Assembly: GCF_036014195.1 (NCBI RefSeq)
Contig: NZ_CP107918.1
Coordinates: 5,952,001 to 6,016,000 of the forward strand
From: Streptomyces sp. NBC_00442
GTDB lineage: Bacteria > Actinomycetota > Actinomycetes > Streptomycetales > Streptomycetaceae
Length of the DNA: 64,000 nucleotides
Direction: 5' to 3'
Under the pieces are notes generated by a model that made no database searches, was not told the origin of the DNA, and saw nothing but the letters and a program-made list of their open reading frames with translations. Each line of letters opens with the position of its first letter. Position 1 is the first letter of the stretch. This document shows positions 19,486 through 61,952 of the stretch, one piece after another. The position numbers and the translations under genes are program-made.

Positions 19486-19508
19486 TTGTCAGTGGGGCGT
19501 GGCAGGAT
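19486..19508 (+). promoter_or_regulatory. DNA-damage-type promoter of polA (PafBC/RecA-NDp-like)
   Basis: TTGTCAGTGG (19486-19495), 7 nt, then CAGGAT (19503-19508) ending 7 nt before the polA ATG, so the transcript should be leaderless. The same architecture precedes uvrB, ogt and the SNF2 gene in this window. The resemblance to the mycobacterial RecA-independent damage motif is from knowledge of that motif. Confidence 0.75.
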
Positions 19509-19515
19509 CGGGGTC

Positions 19516-22227
19516 ATGGCTGAGACAGCATCGAAGAAGACCCCGGACCCCCGACCGCGCCTGCTCCTCATGGACGGGCACTCCCTGGCGTACCGGGCGT
19601 TCTTCGCGCTGCCCGCGGAGAACTTCACAACCGCGACGGGCCAGCCGACCAACGCGGTCTACGGCTTCATGTCCATGCTCGCGAACACCCTGCGTGACGA
19701 GGCACCCACGCATTTCGCGGTGGCGTTCGACGTGTCCCGCAAGACGTGGCGCTCCACGGAGTTCCCCGAGTACAAGGCGAACCGCTCGAAGACGCCCGAC
19801 GAGTTCAAGGGCCAGGTCGAGCTGATCGGCGAGCTGCTCGACGCGATGCACGTCGACCGCTTCGCCACCGACGGCTTCGAGGCGGACGACATCATCGCCA
19901 CCCTGGCCACCCAGGCCGAGGCGGCCGGCTTCGAGGTCCTGATCGTCACCGGCGACCGCGACTCCTTCCAGCTGGTCTCCGACCACGTCACCGTCCTCTA
20001 TCCCACCAAGGGCGTCTCCGAGCTGACCCGGTTCACCCCGGCGAAGGTCGAGGAGAAGTACGGCCTGACCCCGGCGCAGTACCCGGACTTCGCGGCCCTG
20101 CGCGGCGACCCGTCCGACAACCTGCCGGGCATCCCCGGCGTCGGTGAGAAGACCGCCGCGAAGTGGATCAACCAGTTCGGTTCGTTCGCGGAGCTCGTCG
20201 AGCGAGCCGAAGAGGTCAAGGGCAAGGCAGGGCAGAACTTCCGCGACCACCTCGACGCGGTCAAGCTCAACCGCCGCCTCACCGAGATGGTCAAGGACGT
20301 CGAGCTGCCCAAGGGCCCGGCCGAGCTGGAGCGCGCCGCCTACGACCGTGCCGCGGTGACCGGCGTCCTCGATGTCCTGGAGATCCGCAATCCGTCGCTG
20401 CGCGAGCGCCTCCTCGCCGTCGACCCGGGCGCGGGCGAGGCCCAGGCCCCCGAGCCGGCCGCGGGCGTCGACGTCGACGGCACGGTTCTGGGCGCGGGCG
20501 AGCTCGCTCCGTGGCTGGCCGAGCACGGTGGGCAGCCGCTCGGCGTGGCCACCGTCGACACCTGGGCGCTCGGCACCGGAAGCGTCACGGAGATCGCGCT
20601 GGCCGCGGCGGACGGGGCGGCCGGCTGGTTCGACCCGGCGCTGATCGACGAGAGCGACGAGCGGGCCTTCGCCGCCTGGATGGCCGACGCCGCCCAGCCC
20701 AAGATCATGCACAACGCCAAGGCCGCCATGCGGGTCTTCCCCGAGCACGGCTGGAGCATCGCCGGCGTCACCATGGACACCGCGCTCGCCGCCTACCTCG
20801 TCAAGCCCGGCCGCCGCTCCTTCGCCCTGGACGCCCTGTCGGTGGAGTACTTGGGCCGAGAGCTGGCCCCGGCCGGCGCCGCCGACGGACAGCTCGCGTT
20901 CGGCGCGGACGACGAGGCGGAGGCAGCCGCCCTGATGACGCAGGCGCGCGCCGTCCTCGACCTGGGCGGTGCGTTCACCGAGCGGCTCAAGGAAGTCGGC
21001 GCCGCCGACCTGCTGCACGACGTGGAGCTGCCCACCTCCCTCCTCCTGGCCCGTATGGAGCGGTACGGCATCGCCGCCGACCGCGCCCACCTGGAAGCGA
21101 TGGAGCAGCAGTTCGCCGGCGCGGTCCAGCAGGCCGTGAAGGAGGCGCACGCCTCGGTGGGTCACGAGTTCAACCTGGGCTCGCCCAAGCAGCTCCAGGA
21201 AGTCCTCTTCGGTGAACTGGCGCTGCCCAAGACGAAGAAGACCAAGACCGGCTACACCACCGACGCCGACGCGCTGGCCTGGCTCGCCGCCCAGACCGAG
21301 CACGAACTGCCCGTCGTCATGCTGCGCCACCGCGAACAGGCGAAGCTGCGCGTCACCGTCGAAGGCCTGGTCAAGACGATCGCGGCGGACGGCCGCATCC
21401 ACACCACGTTCAACCAGACCGTCGCCGCGACCGGCCGTCTCTCCTCCACCGATCCCAACCTGCAGAACATTCCCGTCCGCACCGACGAGGGCCGTGCGAT
21501 CAGGCGGGGCTTCGTGGTCGGCGAAGGCTACGAGTCGCTGCTCACCGCGGACTACAGCCAGATCGAACTGCGCGTGATGGCCCACCTGTCGGAGGACGCG
21601 GGCCTGATCGAGGCGTTCACCTCCGGCGAGGACCTGCACACCACGGTCGCCTCCCAGGTCTTCGGCGTCGCCAAGTCCCAGGTCGACCCGGAGATGCGGC
21701 GCAAGATCAAGGCGATGTCGTACGGCCTGGCGTACGGTCTGTCCGCCTTCGGTCTCTCGCAGCAGCTGAACATCGAGGCCGGCGAGGCGCGCGGCCTGAT
21801 GGACACGTTCTTCGAGCGCTTCGGCGGCGTACGGGAGTATCTGCAGCGCGCCGTCGAGGAAGCCCGCGCGACGGGCTACACGGAGACGATGCTGGGCCGG
21901 CGCCGCTACCTGCCCGACCTCAACAGCGACAACCGCCAGCGCCGCGAGATGGCCGAGCGGATGGCTCTCAACGCCCCGATCCAGGGCACGGCGGCCGACA
22001 TCGTGAAGGTCGCGATGCTGAACGTGGACCGCGCCCTGACCGAAGCGGGCCTCACTTCCCGTCTGCTGCTCCAGGTCCACGACGAAATCGTCCTGGAAGT
22101 CGCACCGGGGGAGCGCGAGCGGGTCGAGGCCCTGGTCCGCCGCGAGATGGCGGGAGCGGTGCAGCTGCGCGCCCCGCTGGACGTGTCGGTGGGCTCGGGC
22201 GACGACTGGGAGTCCGCGGCCCACTGA
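19516..22227 (+). CDS. polA: DNA polymerase I
   Basis: 903 residues. The 5'-3' nuclease domain (about 12-300) has LLLMDGHSLAYRAFFA, DGFEADDIIATLA and the helix-hairpin-helix GDPSDNLPGIPGVGEKTA. The middle 3'-5' exonuclease region (about 320-500) lacks the DxE motif (VDTWALGTGS instead), so proofreading should be lost, as in other actinobacterial Pol I. The polymerase domain has motif A DYSQIELRVMAH, motif B RRKIKAMSYGLAYGLS and motif C LLQVHDEIVLEV. It fills gaps in repair and removes Okazaki primers. The promoter is of the damage type; a hairpin terminator follows at 22254. Confidence 0.97.
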   Translation: MAETASKKTPDPRPRLLLMDGHSLAYRAFFALPAENFTTATGQPTNAVYGFMSMLANTLRDEAPTHFAVAFDVSRKTWRSTEFPEYKANRSKTPDEFKGQVELIGELLDAMHVDRFATDGFEADDIIATLATQAEAAGFEVLIVTGDRDSFQLVSDHVTVLYPTKGVSELTRFTPAKVEEKYGLTPAQYPDFAALRGDPSDNLPGIPGVGEKTAAKWINQFGSFAELVERAEEVKGKAGQNFRDHLDAVKLNRRLTEMVKDVELPKGPAELERAAYDRAAVTGVLDVLEIRNPSLRERLLAVDPGAGEAQAPEPAAGVDVDGTVLGAGELAPWLAEHGGQPLGVATVDTWALGTGSVTEIALAAADGAAGWFDPALIDESDERAFAAWMADAAQPKIMHNAKAAMRVFPEHGWSIAGVTMDTALAAYLVKPGRRSFALDALSVEYLGRELAPAGAADGQLAFGADDEAEAAALMTQARAVLDLGGAFTERLKEVGAADLLHDVELPTSLLLARMERYGIAADRAHLEAMEQQFAGAVQQAVKEAHASVGHEFNLGSPKQLQEVLFGELALPKTKKTKTGYTTDADALAWLAAQTEHELPVVMLRHREQAKLRVTVEGLVKTIAADGRIHTTFNQTVAATGRLSSTDPNLQNIPVRTDEGRAIRRGFVVGEGYESLLTADYSQIELRVMAHLSEDAGLIEAFTSGEDLHTTVASQVFGVAKSQVDPEMRRKIKAMSYGLAYGLSAFGLSQQLNIEAGEARGLMDTFFERFGGVREYLQRAVEEARATGYTETMLGRRRYLPDLNSDNRQRREMAERMALNAPIQGTAADIVKVAMLNVDRALTEAGLTSRLLLQVHDEIVLEVAPGERERVEALVRREMAGAVQLRAPLDVSVGSGDDWESAAH

Positions 22228-22253
22228 CGAGGCGGGCGGGGGTTCGGCTTCAT

Positions 22254-37616: not shown

Positions 37617-37639
37617 TTGTCAGACCCCGCCCGTAAGGT
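37617..37639 (+). promoter_or_regulatory. DNA-damage-type promoter of the SNF2-SWIM operon
   Basis: TTGTCAGACC (37617-37626), 7 nt, TAAGGT (37634-37639): the same geometry as the polA and uvrB sites. Expected start near 37646, leaving a 60-nt leader with a strong SD before the helicase ATG. Confidence 0.65.
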
Positions 37640-37705: not shown

Positions 37706-40700
37706 ATGGACCGGCCGACACCGATGCGGCACCCCGAGCGCGAGCCGGTCGCCTCAGGACCCGCCGGGCCCGCCCGGCGCGATCATCCGGACCGGCGGCC
37801 CGAGCGCGGAACGGCCCTCACCCGGCCGTCCGGCGCCTCGTCGGCCCGTACCCGGACCGGCGGCCCCGAGGGCATGACCCGCACGTGGCCCGGTGTGACG
37901 GCGGCCGCCGTGTTCTTGCCCGCCGGGCTGCCCCGCGAGGGCAAGGTCGCCTTCTGGGTCCCGGACCAGGGCCCTCTCGCACACGGAGCCGACGGCCCAG
38001 CGGGAGAGGTGGCCGAGCTGACGGTGGTACGCCGCCACGGCGGAGGAGCCCGCAGCCGCAAGGTCGCCGCCCTGCTCGTGCCCGTCGCCGAAGCGCTCCC
38101 CCTGCTGATCGAGGCCAGGAGCCACCCCGCGGCCCACCCGACGGCCGCGTGCTGGGGCGCCGCAGCGCTGCACGCCCTGCACCTCGTCGCGCGCGGCCGG
38201 CTGCTGCCCGGCCTCACCCCCACCAGCCACGACGCCTGGCGGGCCGGCCCGCTCGACGCGGACGACATCGCCCAGCTGCGCGCCATCGCCGCCGCCATGC
38301 CGTACGAGGCGTACGGCGTGCCCGTCCCCGGCCGCGGCGCGCTCCAGCTGCCCGAGCCCGAAGCCCTGGTGCGCGCCTTCCTCGACGCGGTCGCCGACAC
38401 CCTGCCGCGCACCCCGGCCGCCGCCCACGCCGCCGGGGCGCCCTTCGCCGCGCCCACCGCCCAGCACCTGCCGGCCGCCCACGCCTGGGCGGCGGAGGCG
38501 GCCGCGGGGATGGACGCGGGCGTACGGGTCTCCCTGCGCCTCGACCTCGCCGGATTCGAGCTGTTCGACACGGCCGCGGAAGAAGAGGGCGAGGCGAGGC
38601 GCGCCGGCTCGGCGATCGTCCAGGTGCACAGCCTCGCCGACCCCACGCTCGTCGTCGACGCCGCCCGCCTCTGGTCGGACGACGTCCCCCAAAGCACGGC
38701 CACCACGGGGCCACGACGGTCCGCGACCACGACCGGGTCCGCCACGGGCCACGGCGGACCCACGGCCACGGCGTCGACGGGCACCCCCCAGCGGCAGCCC
38801 GCACCCCCAACGAGCGGCGCGGAAAACGGAGTTGACGCCTTCGGTCCGCGTGCCCGGATCGACGCGCTGCTCGCGCTGCGCCGCGCCTCCCGCGTCTGGC
38901 CACCGCTCGGGCTGCTCCTGGAGCGCAGCGTCCCCGACGTCCTGCCCCTCACCGAGGCCGAGCTGTACGAGCTGCTCGGCGAGGCGTCGGCACGGCTGGC
39001 CGCGGCGGGCGTCACCGTCCACTGGCCGCGCGAGCTGGCCCGCACGCTCAGCGCCACCGCCGTCGTGCGCCCGGCACCAGGCTCGGCCACCGACGGCACC
39101 TCCTTCTTCGATGCCGAGGAACTCCTTTCCTTCAACTGGCAGTTGGCGCTCGGCGGCGAACCCCTCACCAACGCCGAGATGGACGTGCTCGCCGAGTCCC
39201 ACCGCCCGATCGTGCGCCTGCGCGACCAATGGGTGGTCGCCGACCCCGAGCTCGTCCGCAAGGCCAGAAAGCGGGACCTGGGCCTGCTCGACCCGGTGGA
39301 CGCCCTGTCGGTCGCCCTCACCGGCACCGCCGACGTCGACGGCGAGACCGTCGAGGCGGTCCCGACCGGGGCGCTCGCGGTGCTCCGCGACCGCCTCCTG
39401 GAAGGGCCCGCGACGGCCGAACAGCCGGCGGGCCTCGACGCGACGCTCCGCGACTACCAACTGCGCGGCCTGGCCTGGCTGTCCATGATGACCTCCATGG
39501 GCCTCGGCGGCTGCCTCGCCGACGACATGGGCCTCGGCAAGACGATCACCGTGATCGCCCTGCACCTGCGGCGCGCCCGCCGCGAGCCCACCCTGGTGAT
39601 CTGCCCGGCCTCGCTGCTCGGCAACTGGCAGCGCGAGATCGCCCGCTTCGCGCCGGGCGTCCCCGTGCACCGCTTCCACGGCAGCAGCCGCACCCTGGAA
39701 ACGCGGAGCGGCGAAGGCGGCTTCGTCCTCACCACGTACGCCACCATGCGCACCAGCGCGCCCCAACTCGCCTCCCGCGCCTGGAACATGGTGGTCGCCG
39801 ACGAGGCGCAACACGTCAAGAACCCGTTCTCCGCCACCGCCAAGGCGCTGCGCACCATCCCCGCCCCCGCCCGGATCGCGCTCACCGGCACCCCGGTGGA
39901 GAACAATCTCTCCGAGCTGTGGGCGCTGCTCGACTGGACGACCCCCGGCCTGCTCGGCCCCCTCAAGGCGTTCCGGGCCCGGCACGCCCGCCTGGTGGAG
40001 AACGGCGAGGACGACGACGCGGCGGACCGCCTCGCCCGCCTGGTGCGGCCCTTCCTCCTCAGGAGGAAGAAGTCCGACCCGGGCATCGTGCCCGAGCTGC
40101 CACCCAAGACCCAGACCGACCACCCCGTGCCGCTGACACGCGAACAGGCCGCCCTCTACGAGGCGGTGGTCCGCGAAGTGATGGCCGCCGTCGAGGCCTC
40201 CGAAGGCATCGCACGGCGCGCCCAGGTCATGAAGCTGCTCACCGCCCTCAAGCAGATCTGCAACCACCCCGCGCAGTACCTGAAGGAGGAGTCACCGCGT
40301 CTCGCGGCCCGCTCGGGCAAACTGGCCCTGCTCGACGAGCTCGTGGACACCATCGTCAGCGAGGACGGCTCGGTCCTCGTCTTCACCCAGTACGTCGCGA
40401 TGGCCCGGCTGCTCTCCCGCCACCTCACCGCACGCGGCGTGCCCTCCCAACTGCTCCACGGAGGAACCCCGGTGGCCGAGCGGGACCGCCTCGTCGACGC
40501 CTTCCAGACCGGCGAGGTGCCCGTGTTCATCCTTTCCCTCAAGGCCGCGGGCACCGGCCTCAACCTCACCCGCGCCGGCCATGTCATCCACTACGACCGC
40601 TGGTGGAACCCGGCGGTCGAGGAACAGGCCACCGACCGCGCCTACCGCATCGGCCAGACCCAGCCGGTCCAGGTCCACCGCCTGATCGCCGAGGGCACCG

Positions 40701-40837
40701 TCGAGGAGCGCATCGCCGAGATGCTGGAACAAAAACGCCGCCTCGCCGACGCCGTCCTCGGCTCCTCGGAGAGCGCCCTGACCGAACTCACCGACCGCGA
40801 ACTGGCCGACCTGATCTCCCTGCGGAGAGCCACATGA
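37706..40837 (+). CDS. SNF2-family DEAD/DEAH-like helicase (ATP-dependent DNA translocase)
   Basis: 1043 residues; ATG 37706 sits behind an almost perfect SD (GGGAGGTGA). The N-terminal 560 residues form the bacterial-SNF2 accessory region. Helicase motif I DDMGLGKTI is near residue 610, motif II DEAQHVKNP near 698, motif III ALTGTPVENNLSELW; the C-terminal half has LVFTQYVAMARLL, LSLKAAGTGLNLT and the motif VI stretch DRAYRIGQTQPVQVHRL. SNF2 proteins translocate on double-stranded DNA and remodel bound proteins. The next gene, a SWIM zinc-finger protein, overlaps by ATGA, the usual pairing in bacteria. The damage-type promoter suggests a repair role. Confidence 0.92.
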   Translation: MDRPTPMRHPEREPVASGPAGPARRDHPDRRPERGTALTRPSGASSARTRTGGPEGMTRTWPGVTAAAVFLPAGLPREGKVAFWVPDQGPLAHGADGPAGEVAELTVVRRHGGGARSRKVAALLVPVAEALPLLIEARSHPAAHPTAACWGAAALHALHLVARGRLLPGLTPTSHDAWRAGPLDADDIAQLRAIAAAMPYEAYGVPVPGRGALQLPEPEALVRAFLDAVADTLPRTPAAAHAAGAPFAAPTAQHLPAAHAWAAEAAAGMDAGVRVSLRLDLAGFELFDTAAEEEGEARRAGSAIVQVHSLADPTLVVDAARLWSDDVPQSTATTGPRRSATTTGSATGHGGPTATASTGTPQRQPAPPTSGAENGVDAFGPRARIDALLALRRASRVWPPLGLLLERSVPDVLPLTEAELYELLGEASARLAAAGVTVHWPRELARTLSATAVVRPAPGSATDGTSFFDAEELLSFNWQLALGGEPLTNAEMDVLAESHRPIVRLRDQWVVADPELVRKARKRDLGLLDPVDALSVALTGTADVDGETVEAVPTGALAVLRDRLLEGPATAEQPAGLDATLRDYQLRGLAWLSMMTSMGLGGCLADDMGLGKTITVIALHLRRARREPTLVICPASLLGNWQREIARFAPGVPVHRFHGSSRTLETRSGEGGFVLTTYATMRTSAPQLASRAWNMVVADEAQHVKNPFSATAKALRTIPAPARIALTGTPVENNLSELWALLDWTTPGLLGPLKAFRARHARLVENGEDDDAADRLARLVRPFLLRRKKSDPGIVPELPPKTQTDHPVPLTREQAALYEAVVREVMAAVEASEGIARRAQVMKLLTALKQICNHPAQYLKEESPRLAARSGKLALLDELVDTIVSEDGSVLVFTQYVAMARLLSRHLTARGVPSQLLHGGTPVAERDRLVDAFQTGEVPVFILSLKAAGTGLNLTRAGHVIHYDRWWNPAVEEQATDRAYRIGQTQPVQVHRLIAEGTVEERIAEMLEQKRRLADAVLGSSESALTELTDRELADLISLRRAT

Positions 40838-42087
40838 CCGCCGCCCGCCCCGCCGGCCCCTCCCTGCGCACCCCCCGCCACGACGACCGCCGGCGCACCT
40901 ACCCCGCGCTCGGCGCCCGCACCGAGCGGACCGGCACCTGGTGGGGCGATGCCTGGGTGGAGGCCCTGGAGGAGCTGGCCCTCGACGCCGGCCGGCTGGC
41001 GCGCGGCCATGCCTACGCGCAGTCCGGTCACGTCGACGCGATCACTGTCACGCCCGGCCGCATCACCGCCTACGTCCACGGCTCCCGGCCCCGCCCCTAC
41101 CGGACGGAACTGCGGCTGCGTACCCTGCCCGACCAGGCGTGGGAGGAGTTCCTCGACACCGCGGCGCAGGCACCCGCTCACATCGCCGCCCTCCTGGACA
41201 AGGATCTGCCGCACGCCCTGGCCGACGAGGCGGCCCTGCTGCCCGCCTCCGGCGACCTGATCCCCGACTGCTCGTGTCCCGACGACGGCTACCCCTGCAA
41301 GCACGCGGCGGCTCTCTGCTACCAGACGGCCCGCCTCCTGGACGAGGACCCGTTCGTGCTGCTGCTGATGCGCGGGCGCGGCGAGCAGGAGCTCCTGGCC
41401 GCGCTCACCCGGCGCAATGCCGCCCGTATGGCCGTGGAGCGGAGCGCCCCGCTGCCTCAACTCCCCACCGTCCAGGCCCGCTCCGCGGTCCAGCCGCGCA
41501 CCAGGCCGCCGCTGCCGCCGCCGTTCCCCCTGCCGTCGCGTCCGGGACATCCGCCCGCGTTCCCCGCGGTGGCCGGTGGCCCCGACCCCCTTTCGCTCGA
41601 CCTCCTCGCCACGGAGGCGGCCATCCGCGCCCACACCCTGCTCACCACCGGGCAGGATCCGATCGCCCCGCTCACCACCTGGCAGGACGCGGTGCGCCTG
41701 GCCGCGGCACATCCCGGCTCCGGGCTCACCTCCGCCACCCGCGCCCTCTACACCGCCTTGACCCGCGCCACCGACCGCACCCCCACGGATCTCGCGCGCG
41801 CGGTGGCCGCCTGGCGCCAGGGCGGCATCGAGGCGCTCGCCGTCCTCGAATCCCCCTGGGACCCGCCGGCCGGCCCCTTCGACCGGGCCCGCCCGGCCCT
41901 GAGCGCCGCCGGGTTCCCCGGTTTCCGGCCCAGCCGCAACCGCCTGTCCACCCCCAGCACCCAGCTCCGCTACGGCCGCGACGGGCTCTGGTACGGCTAC
42001 GAGTCGGACCCGGGCCGGGACGACTGGTGGCCCCGGGGCAGCCCCGACGCCGACCCGGTGGGCGCGCTCACCACCCGCCTCGGCTGA
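40834..42087 (+). CDS. SWIM zinc-finger protein partnered with the SNF2 helicase
   Basis: 417 residues. The SWIM motif is CSCPDDGYPCKHAAALC near residue 148, giving C-x-C-xn-C-x-H zinc ligands; such domains bind DNA or protein. N-terminal TWWGDAWVEALEELALDAGRLARGHAYAQSGHVDAITVTPGRITA is the conserved start of SNF2-linked SWIM proteins. A Pro-rich linker (about 205-245) separates it from a helical C-terminal part. The ATGA overlap with the helicase indicates equal synthesis and probable complex formation. Precise role unknown. Confidence 0.88.
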   Translation: MTAARPAGPSLRTPRHDDRRRTYPALGARTERTGTWWGDAWVEALEELALDAGRLARGHAYAQSGHVDAITVTPGRITAYVHGSRPRPYRTELRLRTLPDQAWEEFLDTAAQAPAHIAALLDKDLPHALADEAALLPASGDLIPDCSCPDDGYPCKHAAALCYQTARLLDEDPFVLLLMRGRGEQELLAALTRRNAARMAVERSAPLPQLPTVQARSAVQPRTRPPLPPPFPLPSRPGHPPAFPAVAGGPDPLSLDLLATEAAIRAHTLLTTGQDPIAPLTTWQDAVRLAAAHPGSGLTSATRALYTALTRATDRTPTDLARAVAAWRQGGIEALAVLESPWDPPAGPFDRARPALSAAGFPGFRPSRNRLSTPSTQLRYGRDGLWYGYESDPGRDDWWPRGSPDADPVGALTTRLG

Positions 42088-42167
42088 CGTTCACGGGCGA
42101 GCGAGGCGCCACCGGGCCGGCCGGGGCACGGCCCCAGCTGGGTCAGGCGGCGGGTCAGACAGCCGGG

Positions 42168-44327
42168 TCAGGCGGCCGTGCCGGGTGCCGTCGCCCTGCG
42201 CTGCGCCGGGCGGGGCCGCTCCAGGCGTGTCACCACATGGGAGTGGAACACGTCGACCGCCGCGTCGACACCGCGGATGAACCCGGTCTCGGCATTGCCG
42301 CGCGTATGGCCCACGCTCTTGGAGAGCGACAGGCGGAATCCAGTGATCCCCTCCGACCCCTTCGGGAGCAGGTCCCCGGGCTCGGGGCGCAACTTCTCCA
42401 GGGTGCCGCGCGGACCGACCCCGTCCCCTTCGAGCAGGGTCTGCACATGCAGATCGGCCGGCGCCTCGGCGAGCTGCCTCATCAGGCGCTTCACCCAGGA
42501 GAGCGGATAGCCCTGCTCGGGGGCCGGGATCTCGATGGACGTCCTGAGCCGCCCCATCCGCAGGTCGGCGACGACACCCAGCACCCCGGGCGCACCCTCG
42601 ACCCGGATCTCCGCCCGGAGCTGCCCGTCCACGCAGAGGCGGTGTGCCAGTTCGGCCCGGCGCGACTGGGGGTCGGTGCCGCGCCGAGCCCGCTGCACGG
42701 GCACCACCTTCGCGCCGAGCTCACCGCCGAGCCGCAGACAGACCTGGCGGATCAGCCGCTCCCAGCTCTCGACGACCTGCACGGACCGCGGGTCGCCCGG
42801 CGTCAGGGTCTCCTCGTCGATTCCATTGCGCACCGGCACCCACGCCGGGCCCATGTTCTGGAAGCCGTGGCAGCCGGAGTTGTCGTGCTGGAGGTAGTGC
42901 AGCAATTCCTGGAGCAGCCAGGCGTGCGCCTCGTTGCGTACGCCCTCGTGGCGGATGAGGAGCTGTGCCTGGTGCGTCACCTCGGCCCAGGACAGGTGCC
43001 ACAACGCGACCTTGTGCTTACGCCGCCCGTCGGTCTTCACCTCGACCAGGGAACTTCCCTCCAGGGCCACGTCGTTGGACAGGGTGATGACCGCCTCGTA
43101 GCCCCGCCGGGCGGCGATGTCCATGTACGCCTGGATCTGCTCGTCCTTGAGCGCGTTGCCGTTGGTCTTGGTTTCGACGAGCGCGGTCCACAGCTTCCCC
43201 GCGCGTTCCACGCGGATGACGCCGTCGGGCCGCTTGGGGCTGTCGCCGTGCGGGAGTGAGACCTCGGTGAAGGCCTCCATCCGCCCGGTGGGCGCGCCGA
43301 ACGCGGCGGTGAGCCGGCGTCCGAACTCGGGCACCTGGGTCATCACCGCCAGCAGCACGGACGTCGCCCGCATCTCGCGTTCCCGGTCGCTCTTCAGCGA
43401 GGACGCGGGGAACAGCCGCGCGGCGCGCCACGTGTCGTTCTCCGCGAGGGAGGCCTTGGACGCCCTGGGCAGCGTGACCTTCTTCTTGGCCGTACGCAGG
43501 CGGCGCGCGGCGGCAGGGGCAGGGGCGGAGGCCGGTTCCGTGGCGGCCGGCTCGGAGCCGCTCTGGGCAGGCACCGTGGCCGAGGCCGACACTGCCACCT
43601 CAACTGCACCAGCCGGTACGGTGGTTGTCGCCCTGGCCTCGACAGCTGCCTCACCGGTGGCGCCGGAGACATCGGCCACAACGGTCTCCACGGCCACAAC
43701 AGCCACCTCAGAAACCTCAGGGATCTCGGCGGCCTCCACCCCTTCACCCGCACCGCCGGGCCCGTCGCCGTCCTGCTCGTCGTCCTCGTCGATCTCGATG
43801 CCGTAGTCGGTGGCCAGCCCTGCGAGTCCGGAGTCGTAGCCCTGGCCGATGGCCCGGAACTTCCATGCGTCCCCGCGCCGGTAGACCTCGCCGAAGACGA
43901 ACGCGCTCTCCGTGCTCGCCCCGTCGATGGAGAAGCCGAGCAGCCCGTCGCCCGAGCCGTCCGTCACCACCAGGCGGATGTTCTCCAACTCCCCGAAATG
44001 GGCCCTGCGGTGGCGGCTGGCCGCCACAATGACCCGGTCGACATCGCCGGGAATCGCGGTCAGATCGAGCCGAATTCGGTCCTCGGTGCCGTTCTCGGTC
44101 GGTGTGGCGCCGAGGAGCTGCACCGTGCCGTCGGCCGCGGCCGGGTTGTTGTAGAAGAAGAAGTCCGCGTTGTCGCGCACTTTTCCGTTCGCGCCGAGCA
44201 GCAGCACGGAGACATCGGCGTCACCCTCGCCGTTCGGGCTGCTCCAGCTCAGGCTGACGATGACGGAGCCGGCGTTCTCGCTCAGCGCGGACAGGGCGAC
44301 GTTGGCACCCTTGACCATTTCCTGCAT
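42168..44327 (-). CDS. TerD domain fused to a PD-(D/E)XK-like nuclease region
   Basis: 719 residues from ATG 44327 (GGGGGGAT upstream). Residues 1-175 are a TerD domain (MVKGANVALSAL, SWSSPNGEGDADVSVLLLG, then FVFGEVYRRGDAWKFRAIGQGYDSGLAGLA), a calcium-binding stress module. A Glu/Ala/Thr/Pro linker (about 175-300) leads to a region near 366-400 reading DGVIRVERAG, LWTALVETKTNG, ALKDEQIQAYMDIA, the layout of a PD-(D/E)XK nuclease (Asp, Glu-x-Lys, then a Gln helix). The last 250 residues are unassigned. TerD-nuclease fusions would connect stress signalling to DNA cutting; activity is an inference. Confidence 0.75.
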   Translation of the reverse strand: MQEMVKGANVALSALSENAGSVIVSLSWSSPNGEGDADVSVLLLGANGKVRDNADFFFYNNPAAADGTVQLLGATPTENGTEDRIRLDLTAIPGDVDRVIVAASRHRRAHFGELENIRLVVTDGSGDGLLGFSIDGASTESAFVFGEVYRRGDAWKFRAIGQGYDSGLAGLATDYGIEIDEDDEQDGDGPGGAGEGVEAAEIPEVSEVAVVAVETVVADVSGATGEAAVEARATTTVPAGAVEVAVSASATVPAQSGSEPAATEPASAPAPAAARRLRTAKKKVTLPRASKASLAENDTWRAARLFPASSLKSDREREMRATSVLLAVMTQVPEFGRRLTAAFGAPTGRMEAFTEVSLPHGDSPKRPDGVIRVERAGKLWTALVETKTNGNALKDEQIQAYMDIAARRGYEAVITLSNDVALEGSSLVEVKTDGRRKHKVALWHLSWAEVTHQAQLLIRHEGVRNEAHAWLLQELLHYLQHDNSGCHGFQNMGPAWVPVRNGIDEETLTPGDPRSVQVVESWERLIRQVCLRLGGELGAKVVPVQRARRGTDPQSRRAELAHRLCVDGQLRAEIRVEGAPGVLGVVADLRMGRLRTSIEIPAPEQGYPLSWVKRLMRQLAEAPADLHVQTLLEGDGVGPRGTLEKLRPEPGDLLPKGSEGITGFRLSLSKSVGHTRGNAETGFIRGVDAAVDVFHSHVVTRLERPRPAQRRATAPGTAA

Positions 44328-52143: not shown

Positions 52144-52695
52144 TCAGAACAGAGGCTGCGGCAGCACCCCTTCGAGCGCGAGCAGCTGTCGCTTGGTCTC
52201 CAGGCCGCCGCCGAACCCGCCCAGGCCGCCGCCGCTCTCCACCACGCGGTGACAGGGCACCACCACGGGCAGCGGGTTCGCCCCCATGGCCGCGCCCACC
52301 GCCTGCGCCGCCCCGGGCTGGCCGACCCGGCCTGCCAGATCGCCGTAGCCCACCACCGTGCCGTACGGCACCCCGGCCGCGAGCTCGCGCAACACCTGCC
52401 GATTGAATCCGGACGCGAGCGACCAGTCGAGCGGCAGCGTGAATTCGCGCAGCCGGCCGTCGAAGTACGCCCCGATCTGGCGTATGGGCTCCTCCAGAGG
52501 GCCCGCGCGGCCGGGCACGGCCGGGGCGGGCTCCGTGCCGAACCGGGCGGCCAGGGCCCGCACGGCACGGGCCCGTACCGCTTCGTCGGCATGGAACACC
52601 ACGTTCACCAGACCCTGGCCCGTCGCGGCCAGGAGCAGCGGACCGATGTCACTGCCGACCACGGTCCACTCGACGAACTGCGCATCGCTGTCCAT
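52144..52695 (-). CDS. ogt: Methylated-DNA-protein-cysteine methyltransferase
   Basis: 183 residues. The acceptor Cys is C148 in VVPCHRVVESGG; YGTVVGYGDLA and GAAMGANPLPVVVPCHR are the family signature, and FNRQVLRELAAGVPYGT starts the DNA-binding winged helix. It directly reverses O6-alkylguanine in DNA and is used up once per lesion. ATG 52695 lies 7 nt after the -10 of a damage-type promoter, so the transcript should be leaderless; this fixes the start. Confidence 0.93.
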   Translation of the reverse strand: MDSDAQFVEWTVVGSDIGPLLLAATGQGLVNVVFHADEAVRARAVRALAARFGTEPAPAVPGRAGPLEEPIRQIGAYFDGRLREFTLPLDWSLASGFNRQVLRELAAGVPYGTVVGYGDLAGRVGQPGAAQAVGAAMGANPLPVVVPCHRVVESGGGLGGFGGGLETKRQLLALEGVLPQPLF

Positions 52696-52702: not shown

Positions 52703-52725
52703 ACGGTACGACCGCCCACTGACAA
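52703..52725 (-). promoter_or_regulatory. DNA-damage-type promoter of ogt
   Basis: On the minus strand TTGTCAGTGG (rc of 52716-52725), 7 nt, TACCGT (rc of 52703-52708), then 7 nt to the ATG. Left half identical to the polA and uvrB sites. Confidence 0.75.
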
Positions 52726-53880: not shown

Positions 53881-53903
53881 TTGTCAGTGGCGGGTCGTAC
53901 GGT
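53881..53903 (+). promoter_or_regulatory. DNA-damage-type promoter of uvrB
   Basis: TTGTCAGTGG (53881-53890), 7 nt, TACGGT (53898-53903), then 6 nt to the ATG: leaderless. Confidence 0.75.
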
Positions 53904-53909: not shown

Positions 53910-56033
53910 ATGCGGCCCGTTTCCAAGATCGAACGTACGGTGGCGCCCTTCGAGGTCGTCAGTCCCTACCAGCCCAGCGGTGACCAGCCGGCGGCCATCG
54001 CCGAGCTGGAGAAGCGCATCCGCGCAGGTGAGAAGGACGTCGTCCTGCTCGGCGCCACCGGCACCGGAAAGTCGGCGACGACTGCCTGGATGATCGAGAA
54101 GCTCCAGCGCCCCACCCTCGTCATGGCGCCGAACAAAACGCTGGCCGCCCAGCTGGCGAACGAGTTCCGTGAGCTGCTGCCCAACAACGCCGTCGAGTAC
54201 TTCGTGTCGTACTACGACTACTACCAGCCCGAGGCGTACGTCCCGCAGTCGGACACCTACATCGAGAAGGACTCCTCGATCAACGAGGAGGTCGAGCGGC
54301 TGCGCCACTCCGCGACCAACTCCCTGCTGACCCGCCGTGACGTGATCGTGGTCGCCTCCGTCTCCTGCATCTACGGCCTGGGCACCCCGCAGGAGTACGT
54401 CGACCGCATGGTGCAGCTGAAGGTCGGCGACGAAATCGACCGCGACCAGCTGCTGCGCCGCTTCGTCGACATCCAGTACACCCGCAACGACGTGGCGTTC
54501 GCCCGCGGCACCTTCCGGGTGCGCGGCGACACCATCGAGATCTTCCCGGTGTACGAGGAACTGGCCGTCCGCATCGAGATGTTCGGGGACGAGATCGAGG
54601 CCCTCTCCACCCTGCACCCGATCACCGGCGAGATCATCAGCGAGGACCAGTCGCTGTACGTCTTCCCGGCGAGCCACTACGTGGCCGGCCCGGAGCGCAT
54701 GGAGAAGGCCGTCAACGGCATCGAGAAGGAGCTGGAGCAGCGCCTGGCGGAGCTGGAGAAGCAGGGCAAGCTCCTGGAGGCGCAGCGGCTGCGCATGCGC
54801 ACCACGTACGACCTGGAGATGCTCCGCCAGATCGGCAGCTGCTCGGGCGTCGAGAACTATTCGATGCACTTCGACGGCCGCGACCCCGGCACCGCGCCCA
54901 ACACCCTGATCGACTACTTCCCCGAGGACTTCCTGCTGGTCCTGGACGAGTCGCACGTGACGGTGCCGCAGATCGGCGCGATGTACGAGGGCGACGCCTC
55001 CCGCAAGCGCACCCTCGTCGACCACGGTTTCCGGCTGCCCTCCGCGCTGGACAACCGGCCGCTGAAGTGGGAGGAGTTCCTGGGCCGCATCGGCCAGACC
55101 GTCTACCTGTCGGCCACCCCCGGCAAGTACGAACTGTCCCGCGGCGACGGCTTCGTGGAGCAGATCATCCGCCCGACCGGCCTGGTCGACCCGGAGGTCG
55201 TGGTCAAGCCCACCGAGGGGCAGATCGACGACCTGGTGCACGAGATCCGGCAGCGCACCGAGAAGGACGAGCGCATCCTGGTCACCACCCTGACCAAGAA
55301 GATGGCCGAGGACCTCACCGACTACTTCCTCGAACTGGGCATCCAGGTGCGCTACTTGCACAGCGACGTCGACACGCTGCGCCGCATCGAGCTCCTGCGC
55401 GAACTGCGGGCCGGCGAGTACGACGTCCTGGTCGGCATCAACCTGCTCCGTGAGGGCCTCGACCTGCCCGAGGTCTCCCTGGTGGCGATCCTCGATGCCG
55501 ACAAGGAGGGCTTCCTCCGTTCGGGCACCTCTCTGATCCAGACCATCGGCCGTGCGGCACGCAACGTCTCCGGCCAGGTCCACATGTACGCCGACCGCGT
55601 CACCCCGGCGATGGAGAAGGCCATCGAGGAGACCAACCGGCGCCGCGAGAAGCAGATCGCGTACAACACGGAGAGGGGCATCGATCCGCAGCCGCTGCGG
55701 AAGAAGATCAACGACATCGTCGCGACCATCGCGCGCGAAGAGGTCGACACCGAGCAGCTGCTCGGCACCGGATACCGCCAGGGCAAGGAGGGGAAGGCCG
55801 CCAAAGCGCCGGTCCCCGCACTCGGAGGCAAGGCGGCGAAGACGGCCAAGGGCGCCAAGAAGGAGCTCACCGACCGGCCGGCGGCCGAACTGGCGGGAAT
55901 CATCGAGGAGATGACCGACCGGATGCGGGCCGCGGCCGCGGACCTGCAGTTCGAGGTGGCGGCCCGGCTGCGCGACGAGGTCGGCGAACTGAAGAAGGAA
56001 CTCCGTCAGATGAGGGAGGCGGGTCTCGCCTGA
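53910..56033 (+). CDS. uvrB: Excinuclease ABC subunit B
   Basis: 707 residues. Walker [15 protein letters not shown] begins near residue 47; the damage-probing beta-hairpin lies in [40 protein letters not shown] is motif [34 protein letters not shown] and QTIGRAARN complete the helicase core. The C-terminal UVR motif ([30 protein letters not shown], about 660-695) binds UvrC. It loads onto damage handed over by UvrA, whose gene begins at 63627. A lysine/alanine-rich insert (about 625-655) is lineage-specific. Confidence 0.97.
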
Positions 56034-56789: not shown

Positions 56790-57110
56790 TCGCACCGCAG
56801 TACGGACACCGCAGTAGTACGAAACACCGCAGCTCCCGGAGGCACGACGCCGCCGGGAGCTGCATCACAACCACCGATGCATCGCCGTCCGCAACTGACG
56901 GTCCGTAACTGACAGTTGGAGAAGGGTAGTTGGGGACCAGTGGTCGGCCACTGACAGCGAAGTCTGCCAGCCGACGACTGACAGCCGAAGTCTGCCAGCC
57001 GTCAGCTGCCAGCCGACAGCTGACAGCCGGCGACTGACAATCGACGGCTGACAGCGGACAACTGACAACCGCGCACGCACGACCATCAACTCGACGAGGG
57101 GACAGAGGCG
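56790..57110. other. 321-bp region between the two terD genes, mostly degenerate repeats
   Basis: No gene supported. A short GC hairpin region near 56836-56863 could terminate the first terD; the rest up to 57071 is the repeat patch described separately. Confidence 0.6.
56894..57071. repeat. Degenerate CTGACAG/CTGCCAGCCG repeat patch
   Basis: ACTGACAG-type octamers start at 56894, 56908, 56950, 56977, 57033 and 57061, with GCTGACAG between them. The best-preserved unit is about 27 bp (56950-56976 and 56977-57003: ACTGACAGC, GAAGTCTGCCAGCCG). Later units are rearranged. The patch ends 40 bp before the second terD ATG. Confidence 0.8.
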
Positions 57111-59072
57111 ATGACGGCCGAGCTGGTACGGGGACAGAACCACCCCCTGCCCCAGACCCGACTGGAAATCCGGGTGTCGGCCGGCACCCCGATCGTGGCG
57201 GGCGCCACGCTCGGCGACGAGCAGGGCAGGGTGCACGGCGTCGAGCGGGTCGCCCACCCCGGCTCGCCGGCCCTGCCCGGCGTCGAGGTCTCCCGGCAGG
57301 CCGCCGCCGAGCACCGCTTGGCCGTGGACCTGGAGGCCCTGGGCGAGGGAGTGCACCGGGTCGGCGTGCTCCTCGCGCTGCCGCTCGGGACGCCGGGCCC
57401 CAGCCGTTTCGCCGCCGTCGCCGCGCCCTTCGTCGCCGTCACCGGCCTCGACGGCGCGGAGATCGCGAGTTACACGATCACGGGCCTCGGCGAGGAGTCC
57501 GCGGTCGTGGCCCTGGAGCTCTACCGCCGCCAAGGCGCATGGAAGATCCGCGCCGTCGGCCAGGGGTACGCGGGAGGCCTCGCGGACCTGCTGGCCGACC
57601 ACGGCCTGCCCGAGGCCGGGCGGCTGGCCACCGCCGTCCAGGAGGCCATCGCGGTCGGTGTCTCCCGCTCCGTGGCGGCGCCGTCGCCGCGTACGAGCGA
57701 CGACGCCCGCGTTCGCGCGTCCGGGGCGGCGCCCGGCGCTGGGCCCGCGCGGACCGACGTCGAGCCACCCGGCGCCCAGCCGTCAGTTGCTCAGCCGTCC
57801 GTTGCCGTGCCGCCCCAACAGGGAGTCGCCGACGGCGGTCCCATCAGCTATGCGCATCCGCGCCGCCGGACCACCCCACCGCCACCGCCATCGTCGGTGC
57901 CCTCCGCCGCGCCGGCGGCCGCCCCGGGTGAGCCGGCCCGTCCGGTCGCGGGCGACGCCGCCGGCTGGTCCATGGACGAGCGGCTCTACAACCAGGTGTG
58001 GGGCATGTTCGAGGACCTGGCCCGCGCCGTCGCGGCCTTCCGAAGCGCCGTCGACTTCGCGGACTCGCGCAGGGAGCAGGAGCTGGACCGGGCCCTGTCC
58101 GACCCGTGCGGCCGCCTGGGCTCCGCCGGAAACCAGGCACGGGAAGAGGCCCACGCCAAGCGGGAGGACCTCGTCGCACGGGCCAAGGAGGTGCTCGACC
58201 GCGACCTCGCTCAGCTGACCGCCGAGTCCGAGGTCGTCGAGCCCGCGCTGCCGCCCGCGTACGCCCGCTGGGACAACCCGGTCTGGCATGCCTACCGGGT
58301 GCCGATGGAGATTCCCATGGCGCTGCGGATCGGTGACGTCCGGCTGCCCGAGCGGCCGGAGCTGCGCATCCCGATGCTGGTCAGGCTGCCGTTGGAACGG
58401 GGCCTGTGGATCGACGCGGGCCGCGTCGGCTCCGAGGCGGCCGCGTTCATGGATGCCGCGCAGATCAAGGGCCTCGCCGTGGACACGGCCGTGGCGATCG
58501 CGGCCCGGCTCCTTGCGGTCTACCCTGCCCATGAGTTCGCCGTCCATGTCATCGATCCCGCGGGCTCGGCCGCGAGTCGGCTCGCCCCGCTCACGCGGTC
58601 CGGGGTGCTGGCCGCGCCGCCCGCCGCGGGCGCCGCGGGCGTGTCCGAGGTGCTGGCGCGGCTCACCGAGCGGGTGGACCTCGTACAGATGGCGGCCCGG
58701 GGCGGAGCGGGCGCCGACGCCCTGCCGCCCGACATGGACACCGCCGAGCAGCTCCTGATCGTCAACGACTTTCCGCACGGCTTCGACGACCGCGCCCTGA
58801 ACCAGCTGCGCTACCTGGCCGACGAGGGCCCCTCGGTGGGCGTCCACCTCCTGATGGTCGCCGACCGCGAGGACGCGAGCGAGTACGGGCCGGTGCTGCA
58901 CCCGTTGTGGCGCTCGCTGCTGCGGCTGACGCCCATCCCCGAAGACCACCTCGCCGACCCGTGGGTGGGGCACGCCTGGACGTACGAGCCGCCGCTGGCG
59001 CCGTCGGGCAGCCGGGTCCTGGAGCAGGTGCTCGACCGGGTCGGCGAGGCCCGCGCGGCCTGGCCCCGCTAG
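57111..59072 (+). CDS. TerD domain fused to an FtsK/SpoIIIE-like domain without Walker A
   Basis: 653 residues. A diverged TerD domain occupies 1-190 (YTITGLGEESAVVALELYRRQGAWKIRAVGQGYAGGLADLLADHG is its end). A Pro/Ala linker (190-285) and a coiled-coil-like helical stretch (285-380) precede a domain (about 400-650) resembling the nucleotide-binding part of FtsK/HerA ATPases: RIPMLVRLPLERGLWIDAG at the expected P-loop strand, but no GxGKS; LLIVNDFPHGFDD as a Walker-B-like strand; GVHLLMVADREDASEY as the sensor strand. It is probably an ATPase-derived scaffold. ATG 57111 has an AGAGG SD. Confidence 0.75.
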   Translation: MTAELVRGQNHPLPQTRLEIRVSAGTPIVAGATLGDEQGRVHGVERVAHPGSPALPGVEVSRQAAAEHRLAVDLEALGEGVHRVGVLLALPLGTPGPSRFAAVAAPFVAVTGLDGAEIASYTITGLGEESAVVALELYRRQGAWKIRAVGQGYAGGLADLLADHGLPEAGRLATAVQEAIAVGVSRSVAAPSPRTSDDARVRASGAAPGAGPARTDVEPPGAQPSVAQPSVAVPPQQGVADGGPISYAHPRRRTTPPPPPSSVPSAAPAAAPGEPARPVAGDAAGWSMDERLYNQVWGMFEDLARAVAAFRSAVDFADSRREQELDRALSDPCGRLGSAGNQAREEAHAKREDLVARAKEVLDRDLAQLTAESEVVEPALPPAYARWDNPVWHAYRVPMEIPMALRIGDVRLPERPELRIPMLVRLPLERGLWIDAGRVGSEAAAFMDAAQIKGLAVDTAVAIAARLLAVYPAHEFAVHVIDPAGSAASRLAPLTRSGVLAAPPAAGAAGVSEVLARLTERVDLVQMAARGGAGADALPPDMDTAEQLLIVNDFPHGFDDRALNQLRYLADEGPSVGVHLLMVADREDASEYGPVLHPLWRSLLRLTPIPEDHLADPWVGHAWTYEPPLAPSGSRVLEQVLDRVGEARAAWPR

Positions 59073-59188: not shown

Positions 59189-59218
59189 TTTACCTTCTCT
59201 TGGTTATTCGGGTAGGCT
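59189..59218 (+). promoter_or_regulatory. terC promoter
   Basis: TTTACC (59189-59194), 18 bp, TAGGCT (59213-59218). The expected start near 59225 coincides with the first base pair of the riboswitch. Confidence 0.5.
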
Positions 59219-59225
59219 TCCTCCC

Positions 59226-59340: not shown

Positions 59341-59383
59341 CAGCGACGACGCTGATCAGTAGCCGTACGACGCCGGAGGCGCA

Positions 59384-60364
59384 GTGGACGTTTCAATGAC
59401 TTTGTGGGTGCTGACCATTCTTGGTCTGTGCGCCCTGATCGCGGCCGACTTCTTCATCGGGCGCAAGCCCCACGACGTATCGGTCAAGGAAGCCGGCATC
59501 TGGACCGTGGTCTGGATCGTGCTGGCCGCGCTCTTCGGCGTGGGTCTGCTGCTCTTCGGCAGCAGTCAGGCGTCGGGTGAGTTCTTCGCCGGATTCATCA
59601 CCGAGAAGTCGCTCTCCGTCGACAACCTCTTCGTCTTCATCCTGATCATGGCGAAGTTCTCGGTGCCCTCGCACCTGCAGCAACGGGTGCTGCTCTTCGG
59701 CGTGTTGATCGCCCTCGTGCTGCGCGCCATCTTCATCGCGGCCGGCGCGGCGGTCATCGCCAACTTCTCGTGGGTCTTCTACATCTTCGGCGCGTTCCTG
59801 ATCTACACCGCCTGGAAGCTCATCCAGGAGGCGCGCTCCGGCGACGAGGAGGAGGAGTTCGAGGAGAACCGCCTCCTGAAGTCCGTCGAGAAGAAGTTCG
59901 GCGTCGCCGACAAGTACCACGGCACCAAGCTGTTCGTGGCGAAGAACGGCAAGAAGATCATGACGCCGCTGATGGTCGTCATGCTCGCCATCGGCACCAC
60001 CGACGTGCTCTTCGCGATGGACTCGATCCCGGCGATCTTCGGCCTCACCCAGGACCCGTACATCGTCTTCACCGCCAACGCCTTCGCGCTGATGGGCCTG
60101 CGCCAGCTGTACTTCCTGATCGGCGGACTGCTCAAGAAGCTGGTCCACCTCAGCTACGGCCTCTCGGTGATCCTCGGCTTCATCGGCGTGAAACTGGTGC
60201 TGCACGCCCTGCACGAGAACGGGGTGCACGTCCCGGAGATCTCCATCCCGGTCTCCCTCGGTGTCATCTGCGGCGTGCTGGTCATCACCACCATCACCAG
60301 CTTCGTCGCCGCCAAGAAGCAGGGGGCGGCCGAGGCGCCGGAGAAGGACAGCATCGGCGCCTGA
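59384..60364 (+). CDS. TerC-family integral membrane protein, probable Mn2+ exporter
   Basis: 326 residues, about nine membrane segments. KSLSVDNLFVFILIM and TTDVLFAMDSIPAIFGLTQDPYIVFTANAFALMGLRQLYFL hold the paired acidic residues of the TerC/LysE-type transport core. A charged cytosolic loop (about 140-185, RSGDEEEEFEENRLLKSVEKKFG) separates the halves. GTG 59384 has GGAGG close upstream; ATG 59396 is an alternative. Bacterial TerC proteins export manganese and help metallate exoenzymes; the Mn riboswitch in the leader supports this here. Confidence 0.93.
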   Translation: MDVSMTLWVLTILGLCALIAADFFIGRKPHDVSVKEAGIWTVVWIVLAALFGVGLLLFGSSQASGEFFAGFITEKSLSVDNLFVFILIMAKFSVPSHLQQRVLLFGVLIALVLRAIFIAAGAAVIANFSWVFYIFGAFLIYTAWKLIQEARSGDEEEEFEENRLLKSVEKKFGVADKYHGTKLFVAKNGKKIMTPLMVVMLAIGTTDVLFAMDSIPAIFGLTQDPYIVFTANAFALMGLRQLYFLIGGLLKKLVHLSYGLSVILGFIGVKLVLHALHENGVHVPEISIPVSLGVICGVLVITTITSFVAAKKQGAAEAPEKDSIGA

Positions 60365-60458
60365 CCCAAAGCCGGAAGGGCCCCGAAGCCTGAAGGGCCC
60401 CGGGGTACCCATGGGCCCAAGACCCCAGGCCCTAGGGGCCGTGGCGGCACGACGAGAG

Positions 60459-60477
60459 GGCCCCCTACGCGGGGGCC
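60459..60477. terminator. Hairpin at the convergent ends of terC and the MHS transporter gene
   Basis: GGCCCCC-TACGC-GGGGGCC; it spans the transporter stop codon. The same gap holds two GAAGGGCCCCG copies (60374-60400), which may form further structure. Confidence 0.5.
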
Positions 60478-61790
60478 GTCTCCGATTCCGTCCCGGGCGC
60501 CGGCCGCATCACCGCGTGCGGGCCCGTCTCGGGCAGCAGCGCGAAACAGCCCAGACTCAGCAGCCCGAGCCCGGTCAGATACGCGGCGACGCCCCACGGC
60601 GGGCTGTCACCGCGTGACAGCGCGGTCGCCACGATCGGGGTCAGCGCGCCGCCGAGCACCCCACCCAGGTTGTAGCCGACCGCGGCGCCCGTGCAACGCA
60701 CCCTCGGCTCGTACAGTTCCGGCAGGTACGCGGCGATCACCGCGAACATCGAGATGAACGCCAGCATCGCGCCGAGGAACCCCACGAACATCCACAGCGG
60801 CTCGGCGGTCCCGAGCAGGGCCACCATCGGGAACATCCAGACCACTGTCGCCGCGCACCCCACGAGGCACAGCGGCCGCCTTCCGTAGCGGTCGCCCAGC
60901 AGCGCCGCGAGCGGGGTCAGCGCGCCCATGATCGCGACGGCCGCCATGATGCAGGCCAGCATCACCGTGCGGTCCACCCCGAGGCGCTCCGTCGCGTACG
61001 CGAGGGACCAGGTGGAGACCGCGTAGAAGACGGCGTATCCGACCGCGAGCGCACCCGCGGTCAGCAGGACCAACCGGCCGTGTCCACGCGCCACTTCGAG
61101 CAGCGGCAGCCTGACCGGTTCGCCCATCTCGCGGAAGTGCGGCGTCTCCGCGAGGGAGGTCCGCAGCAGCAGCCCGGTCAGCGCGAGCAGCCCCGCGCCC
61201 CAGAACGGGACCCGCCACCCCCAGGCGTGGAACTGGGCGTCGCTCAGGGCCGAGGACAGGGCGAGGACGACGCCGTTGGCGAGCAGGAAGCCGACGGACG
61301 GCCCGATCTGCGGAAAGCTCGTCCACAGCCCGCGCCGGTGGGCGGGCGCGTGCTCGGCGGTGAGCAGTACCGCGCCGCCCCATTCGCCGCCGAGCCCCAG
61401 CCCCTGGAGGAAGCGCAGCACGAGGAGCAGGACGGGCGCCGCGATGCCGAGCGTCGCGTACGAGGGCACACAGCCGACCGCCACCGTGGCGAGCCCGGTC
61501 AGGGCGAGTGAGGCGAACATGACCGGGCGGCGCCCGTAGCGGTCGCCGATGTGTCCGAAGACGACGGAGCCCAGGGGGCGGGCGAGGAAGCCGGCCCCGA
61601 AGGTGCCGAAGGCGGCCAGGGTTCCCGCGAGCGCGGAGAAGGTCGGGAAGAAGAGCGGGCCGAGAACGAGTGCGGCCGCGGTCCCGTACACGAAGAAGTC
61701 GTAGAACTCGATGGCGGTGCCCGCGAGCGAGGCGGCCGCGAGGCGGACCATCGACGGGGGACCGGGGGCAGGTGTGGTGCTGGTGCGCAT
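60465..61790 (-). CDS. MFS transporter of the metabolite:H+ symporter (MHS) family
   Basis: 441 residues, twelve membrane segments. SLAGTAIEFYDFFVYGTAAALVLGPLFFP is the hallmark MHS start, GHIGDRYGRRPVM the loop 2-3 motif, RFLQGLGLGGEWGGAVLLTAEHAP the segment 4-5 signature. Such proteins import dicarboxylates, shikimate, proline/betaine and similar compounds with protons. ATG 61790 precedes TSTTPAPG; an upstream TTG is less likely. Substrate unknown. Confidence 0.9.
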   Translation of the reverse strand: MRTSTTPAPGPPSMVRLAAASLAGTAIEFYDFFVYGTAAALVLGPLFFPTFSALAGTLAAFGTFGAGFLARPLGSVVFGHIGDRYGRRPVMFASLALTGLATVAVGCVPSYATLGIAAPVLLLVLRFLQGLGLGGEWGGAVLLTAEHAPAHRRGLWTSFPQIGPSVGFLLANGVVLALSSALSDAQFHAWGWRVPFWGAGLLALTGLLLRTSLAETPHFREMGEPVRLPLLEVARGHGRLVLLTAGALAVGYAVFYAVSTWSLAYATERLGVDRTVMLACIMAAVAIMGALTPLAALLGDRYGRRPLCLVGCAATVVWMFPMVALLGTAEPLWMFVGFLGAMLAFISMFAVIAAYLPELYEPRVRCTGAAVGYNLGGVLGGALTPIVATALSRGDSPPWGVAAYLTGLGLLSLGCFALLPETGPHAVMRPAPGTESETAPA

Positions 61791-61929
61791 GCCGCGCCAA
61801 CTACCCGCGGTGATCAAGCGTTACGGGGGCGCGCGGAAGCGCAGGGGGCGGGGTGGAGGCTCGGCGGCGGGGTGGGTGCCGCGCGCGCCGTGGGCCCGGA
61901 AACGGGGCGGACCCCGCGCACGGACCCGA

Positions 61930-61952
61930 TTGTCAGTGGCGGGTGCCACGAT
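61930..61952 (+). promoter_or_regulatory. Orphan DNA-damage-type promoter
   Basis: TTGTCAGTGG (61930-61939), 7 nt, CACGAT (61947-61952), then 6 nt to an ATG at 61959, exactly the uvrB layout. No intact plus-strand gene follows. Confidence 0.65.

Follow-up and report, generated by a model that had tools for sequence, protein, structure and literature searches.

The window analysed here, a stretch of 64,000 nucleotides (nt) covering positions 5952001 to 6016000 of the 7.73-Mb chromosome of Streptomyces sp. NBC_00442, carries five copies of a rigid motif, TTGTCAG-N10-YANNNT, which precede polA, uvrB, ogt, an operon encoding an SNF2 helicase and a SWIM zinc-finger protein, and, in the fifth case, no conserved gene that we could find (the orphan site). 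With a probability of roughly 0.86, these sites would be promoters of the RecA-NDp (RecA-independent) class, activated by PafBC under DNA damage and numbering about 60 in the genome. The promoter class itself is established (PMC8223512, PMC6789036), and the available part of PMC8223512 places it beyond mycobacteria as well. The first-pass annotation had noted a resemblance to this class. The motif is enriched in the genome, rigidly spaced, often followed by repair genes, and conserved in relatives, and genes for PafB and PafC are present; together this makes a strong sequence-based case for the assignment; PafBC binding, damage induction, independence of LexA and RecA, and protein function at these loci are what we infer by analogy.

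All five sites were found at the coordinates first annotated. They lie upstream of polA (19486 to 19508, plus strand, TTGTCAGTGGGGCGTGGCAGGAT, with the ATG 7 nt past the hexamer), the SNF2-SWIM operon (37617 to 37639, plus strand, TTGTCAGACCCCGCCCGTAAGGT, an ACC variant), ogt (52703 to 52725, minus strand, TTGTCAGTGGGCGGTCGTACCGT), and uvrB (53881 to 53903, plus strand, TTGTCAGTGGCGGGTCGTACGGT), and at the orphan position (61930 to 61952, plus strand). The first element reads TTGTCAGTG at the polA, ogt, uvrB, and orphan sites and takes the variant form TTGTCAGAC at the SNF2 site; the hexamer is CANNNT, not TANNNT, at the polA and orphan sites. Against five matches in the window, 0.03 are expected from 100 dinucleotide shuffles, none of which reached five, and TTGTCAG alone occurs 7 times against 2.85 expected (at least 7 in 3 of 100 shuffles). 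The two TTGTCAG copies outside the five sites (57034 and 57062, minus strand, spanning 57034 to 57068) are 28 nt apart, lack the full motif, and adjoin the open reading frame (ORF) at 57111 on its upstream side.

Across the whole genome the pattern gave 59 matches versus 4 for its reversed control, so its frequency is not random, the point on which the first-pass annotation had let its proposal depend; the motif is a regulon signature and not a peculiarity of one locus. A purine precedes TTGTCAG in 57 of the 59 sites, and the next two positions are T in 49/59 and G in 50/59, respectively. We take the published RecA-NDp consensus to be TTGTCRGTG-N8-TANNNT; among the 28 sites in this genome that fit TTGTCRGTG...TANNNT, 27 have A at the R position. 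When the gap was left free from 2 to 20, all 27 TTGTCAGTG...TANNNT matches in the genome fell at gap 8, and the reversed control gave none.

ATG or GTG follows the hexamer at offset 6 (13 sites) or 7 (17 sites) in 30/59 sites, compared with a mean of 1.9 sites per offset at the remaining 58 offsets between 0 and 59. Site centers fall inside predicted genes in only 9/59 cases, though 85% of the 968 kb examined is predicted coding sequence (about 19 kb around each of the 54 sites outside the window, with genes predicted by a simple codon-usage model). At offset 6 the start codon coincides with the position where a sigma-70 promoter usually has its +1, and the mRNAs of such sites should therefore be leaderless; by this placement, half of the promoters should start transcription at or beside the start codon. 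The hexamer-to-start distances of 6 to 7 nt first annotated for three window genes hold, being 7, 6, and 7 bases for polA, uvrB, and ogt. These genes, all predicted to be leaderless, have NCBIfam matches that bear out their naming as known repair genes, and we regard them as conventional members: polA, DNA polymerase I (19516 to 22227, plus strand; PRK05755, 1042 bits, cut-off 720); uvrB (53910 to 56033, plus strand; PRK05298, 1077 bits, cut-off 743); and ogt, O6-methylguanine-DNA methyltransferase (52144 to 52695, minus strand; TIGR00589, its start picked by the leaderless rule).

This architecture suggests how the promoters might work. The activator PafBC would recognize TTGTCAGTG as its -26 element, and the housekeeping sigma factor would recognize (T/C)ANNNT, at its fixed spacing, as the -10 element. 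By homology with the mycobacterial mechanism, damage would yield single-stranded DNA, PafBC would become active, and ordinary RNA polymerase would start at these promoters; the same may hold in this Streptomyces at about 60 promoters. In mycobacteria, according to the available part of PMC11804915, single-stranded DNA activates PafBC, PafB reads the -26 element, and PafC contacts domain 4 of SigA, a mode called sigma adaptation.

Genes, genomes, and a candidate regulator

A same-strand gene starts within 600 nt downstream of 54/59 sites; the orphan site is among the five without one. Eighteen of the 54 first genes are assigned by NCBIfam to DNA repair, replication, or precursor supply: recA, an Lhr-type helicase, a topoisomerase IV/gyrase A subunit, thyX, ligA, a UvrD/AddA-like helicase, radA, dnaX, a PRK14975 polymerase, a RecD2-like helicase, ruvC, rarA, dinB, ung, ogt, polA, uvrB, and the SNF2 helicase (the UvrD-like, RecD2-like, and rarA names rest on scores under the curated cut-off). 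We do not claim function at every site or the correctness of every gene assignment. The LexA/SOS operator is the palindrome CGAAC-N4-GTTCG near a promoter; no perfect box was found within 120 nt of any of the 59 sites, 2 had one with one mismatch, and 11 had one with two mismatches, counts for which the chance level is uncomputed. The sites were rejected as LexA/SOS operators, box overlap being weak, and single genes may be under dual LexA control.

Among the individual loci of this genome, L043 (9461 to 9637, minus strand) and L065 (8973 to 9152, plus strand) hold similar-looking ORFs of 59 to 60 amino acids that begin 6 nt past identical motifs; neither ORF has a Pfam or NCBIfam match, and a damage-induced small protein family is possible. 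At L053 (8829 to 9509, minus strand), a Qnr/MfpA-like pentapeptide-repeat gene (similarity under the cut-off) lies behind a leaderless RecA-NDp site.

The motif recurs in the relatives of this strain. The count of the RecA-NDp consensus covered 296 genomes of the class, 28 of which belong to the genus of the window, and every one of these 28 carries 9 to 52 copies, 709 in total versus 4 for the reversed control. Searched across the phylum, the strict TTGTCAG pattern is, as judged by eye, low in most other families relative to its control, and TTGTCGG prevails there among the matches listed. One genome of family f91 (G534) has 119 consensus sites versus 0 reversed, the highest count among the matches listed, a possible case of expansion or mobile copies.

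Individual promoters were compared in the best 80 loci that carry a relative of the MBL-fold gene of the window (79 Streptomyces, one Kitasatospora), counting genes whose upstream sequence reached 150 nt or more and allowing up to one mismatch. The uvrB site is found in 37/39 loci (25 exact), all 37 at 6 or 7 nt before the start, and the ogt site is found in 21/22 (14 exact). Upstream of uvrA, a site occurs in 49/76 loci (39 exact), 55 to 58 nt before the gene. The antisense control gave no site in any of the three sets. It is extremely improbable that the shared motif is due to chance or to a dispersed repeat lacking function: one pair of sites, at L043 and L065, is identical and followed by similar ORFs, which would fit a repeat, but enrichment over shuffles and reversed controls, the fixed spacing, and the conservation at orthologous uvrB, ogt, and SNF2 genes speak against it, and the explanation was rejected on the shuffle, reversed, and spacing controls.

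The genome has seven WYL-domain matches, two of which are adjacent at 6.39 Mb and correspond to PafB and PafC. The first of this pair matches chains of 7p5x, 9fnd, and 6sj9, and the second matches PafC of 7p5x and the fused PafBC of 6sj9 (7p5x is presumably from M. smegmatis and 6sj9 from Arthrobacter). Two arginines, R44 and R48, align to GRMFER of 6sj9, to FNRMFERDKDDLRELG in this genome, and to FSRMFERDKNELRDLG in the 7p5x chain. They belong to the PafB recognition helix (PMC6789036, as far as available), which by this alignment is conserved here. A PafB-like protein at 80% identity or more is encoded in 28/28 genomes of the genus.

It is unlikely that the motif has a different reader with no specificity for damage, for instance an alternative sigma factor or a WYL paralogue. 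The seven WYL-domain matches, PafB and PafC included, leave room for one, and so do the many assigned genes that have no evident repair role, for instance those for DtxR, sigma factors, and transporters. Against such a reader, the motif fits the RecA-NDp consensus at the same spacing, recA, polA, uvrB, ruvC, radA, dinB, and ung together resemble a repair regulon, and the recognition helix of PafB is conserved.

Several observations weigh against reading the sites as PafBC-activated damage promoters. The hexamer starts with C in 24/59 sites, deviating from the TANNNT consensus; 36/54 assigned genes (dtxR, sigma factors, acetyltransferases, transporters, unknowns) have no evident role in repair or replication; and the five WYL-domain matches besides PafB and PafC make another reader conceivable. 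PafB-like proteins occur in 284/296 genomes of the class, so the co-occurrence of motif and regulator is uninformative. The motif is missed upstream of 6/46 close SNF2 homologues in the genus, and none of 30 SNF2 loci of family f3, which we guess to be Mycobacteriaceae, has an exact TTGTCRG site facing the gene. The LexA study of S. venezuelae mentions an initial search by which the PafBC motif of M. smegmatis seemed not to be conserved in that species, and it describes a RecA/LexA-independent damage response in Streptomyces as still to be shown (PMC9380542, in the part available). The genus count of 709 versus 4, taken over 28 genomes, bears on that statement and would go against it. The favored A of TTGTCAG and the frequent CANNNT hexamer may be the reason for the failure of a mycobacterial matrix in S. 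venezuelae.

The SNF2-SWIM operon

The first gene of this operon encodes an SNF2 helicase of the SCO1167/SCO6262 family (37706 to 40837, plus strand; NF058637, 1505 bits, cut-off 1200) with DUF3670, SNF2-rel, and Helicase_C domains; the conserved protein may start at about 37874. The second encodes a SWIM zinc-finger protein (40834 to 42087, plus strand; Pfam SWIM), with a 4-nt overlap between its start and the SNF2 stop; another model for this gene (40941 to 43259) is in the wrong frame and was rejected.

The N-terminal part of SNF2 was matched in 59/61 genomes of the genus, and the motif (up to one mismatch) lies upstream of 40/46 close homologues. These 46 comprise 30 loci, the window's own included, and 16 of the next 17 matches, one having been left out at a contig edge. 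All of the first 30 carry the motif (22 exact), with none antisense or reversed in the 280-nt windows; the next 16 carry it in 10 cases (9 exact) in windows of 801 to 901 nt, and the chance level of a one-mismatch motif is about 0.02 per 530 nt. Among distant homologues in the genus (49 to 59% identity), the motif was found at 0/20; they were taken in rank order with 7 skipped, and in G661, G670, G709, and G711 the match is the genome's only one, so these are not necessarily paralogues. In 20/20 regions, SNF2 is followed on its own strand by a SWIM homologue, from direct contact to a distance of about 1.7 kb; at L238 the SWIM homologue is 3.2 kb away, and SNF2 is aligned only in part. Because the relatives are not independent lineages, independent events are fewer than these counts suggest.

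Of the two candidate new members proposed in the first-pass annotation, the SNF2-SWIM operon stood, by its contrast between close and distant homologues, and the orphan site did not (see below). The operon is supported as a regulon member conserved within the genus, on the evidence of upstream sequence. An older, pre-genus origin of its promoter is not supported, the site present in the genus not being found in family f3: one-mismatch sites occur there in 5/30 loci in gene direction and in 9/30 on the opposite strand, the f3 homologues are 32 to 45% identical and of unsure orthology, and two loci (L287 and L307) were scanned over only 0 and 124 nt. The nine opposite-strand sites (L284, L285, L289, L292, L295, L297, L298, L300, and L306) perhaps serve a divergent gene. 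Judged solely by regulation and domain content, the operon probably encodes a helicase/translocase and a zinc-finger partner acting on damaged or stalled DNA; no link between SNF2-SWIM and PafBC was found in the open-access literature, supplements excluded. A second, leaderless SWIM protein is encoded at L047 (8380 to 11207) in this genome, where a divergent RecA-NDp pair separates its gene from that of an AAA_5 (MoxR-like) ATPase; it resembles the window SWIM protein only across a short zinc-finger stretch.

The orphan site and the uvrA promoter

At the orphan site, an ATG (61959) follows 6 nt past the hexamer, and its neighbors, an MFS transporter gene and the 3' end of the MBL-fold gene, are both on the opposite strand. 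Among the 80 relatives, it is shared at the same place with one, Streptomyces sp. WM6378 (L086), in which the promoter and first codons align with those of the window and the upstream spacer does not; at L155, a one-mismatch motif lies elsewhere within the 400 nt scanned. A DNA search of 149 more relatives returned short matches, several of which were other promoters of the same class where inspected, and established no orthologous placement among the matches listed (five candidates scored per genome); one genome (G696) has a 72% match to the orphan region, with synteny unchecked. The site is not supported as the promoter of a conserved gene; 79 of the 80 related loci lack the site at that place. 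We regard it, with low confidence, as a lineage-specific promoter with no demonstrated product, either young or decaying, and possibly giving a short RNA.

A perfect GC-rich 9-bp hairpin (62003 to 62024) lies past the orphan site, beside the 3' end of the MBL gene on the other strand; by energy it does no better than shuffled sequence, and a similar hairpin can form in L086. One possible, yet doubtful, reading makes the orphan site a functional promoter, induced by damage, of either a short leaderless micro-ORF or a small RNA that ends at this hairpin. The complete -26/-10/ATG architecture would suit such a role, as would the alignment of L086 over promoter and first codons and the GC-rich hairpin possible in both strains. 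Its confinement to a single one of the 80 relatives and the outcome in the 149 further genomes count against this reading. The ORF, which runs antisense to the MBL gene, has amino acid changes in 5 of the 7 codons that differ before the first indel (by eye), another point against it, as is the unexceptional hairpin energy; the hairpin may be the terminator of the opposite gene.

The 5' part of uvrA (63627 to 64000, plus strand) begins 1.7 kb past the orphan site, with no RecA-NDp site upstream in the window. Its promoter region (63480 to 63640; L086 to L165) shows turnover: 49 of the 76 relatives have the site, and 27 and the window lack it. Given the absence of a site that most relatives carry 55 to 58 nt before uvrA, the orphan could be a distal replacement for it; such a role is very improbable, because 26 of the 27 relatives without a uvrA site also lack the orphan (only L086 has it), and the hairpin and two opposite-strand genes intervene.

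Relation to known damage responses

The mycobacterial RecA-NDp/PafBC regulon resembles the present set in its TTGTCRGTG element, its fixed spacing to a TANNNT -10 hexamer, its repair genes including recA, and the presence of genes for PafB and PafC. The sites in this genome differ in their preference for A (27/28), the many CANNNT hexamers, and the TTGTCAGACC variant; half of them are placed for leaderless mRNAs. Within the genus, the promoter of the S. coelicolor macrodomain gene SCO6735 belongs to the same class and is UV-inducible (PMC5087735, PMC9411070, in the parts available); the available part of that study (PMC5087735) covers a single gene and its orthologues and gives no genome-wide set, regulator, or leaderless rule. 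The LexA SOS regulon of S. venezuelae (PMC9380542, in part) is likewise a damage response of the genus, but LexA acts through a repressor operator, whereas the present motif has a nonpalindromic, activator-type promoter form. No genome-wide RecA-NDp map in Streptomyces was found in the open-access literature. What is new here is a member set for a known promoter class and, within the genus, SNF2-SWIM as a repair candidate. A wider proposal has in our view a little better than an even chance of being right: across the genus, PafBC would control tens of promoters independently of LexA, half of them giving leaderless mRNAs, and the regulon would include the conserved SNF2-SWIM pair, forming an unrecognized lineage-specific complex for repair or fork remodeling.

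A precise motif, a one-genome gene list, and a genus-wide count make a RecA/LexA-independent response in Streptomyces directly testable, and a conservation test with a distant-homologue control singles out the helicase/zinc-finger operon as a repair candidate. If the predicted start sites are true, damage-induced repair mRNAs would bypass Shine-Dalgarno initiation. Antibiotic producers that make DNA-damaging compounds may rely on such a response.

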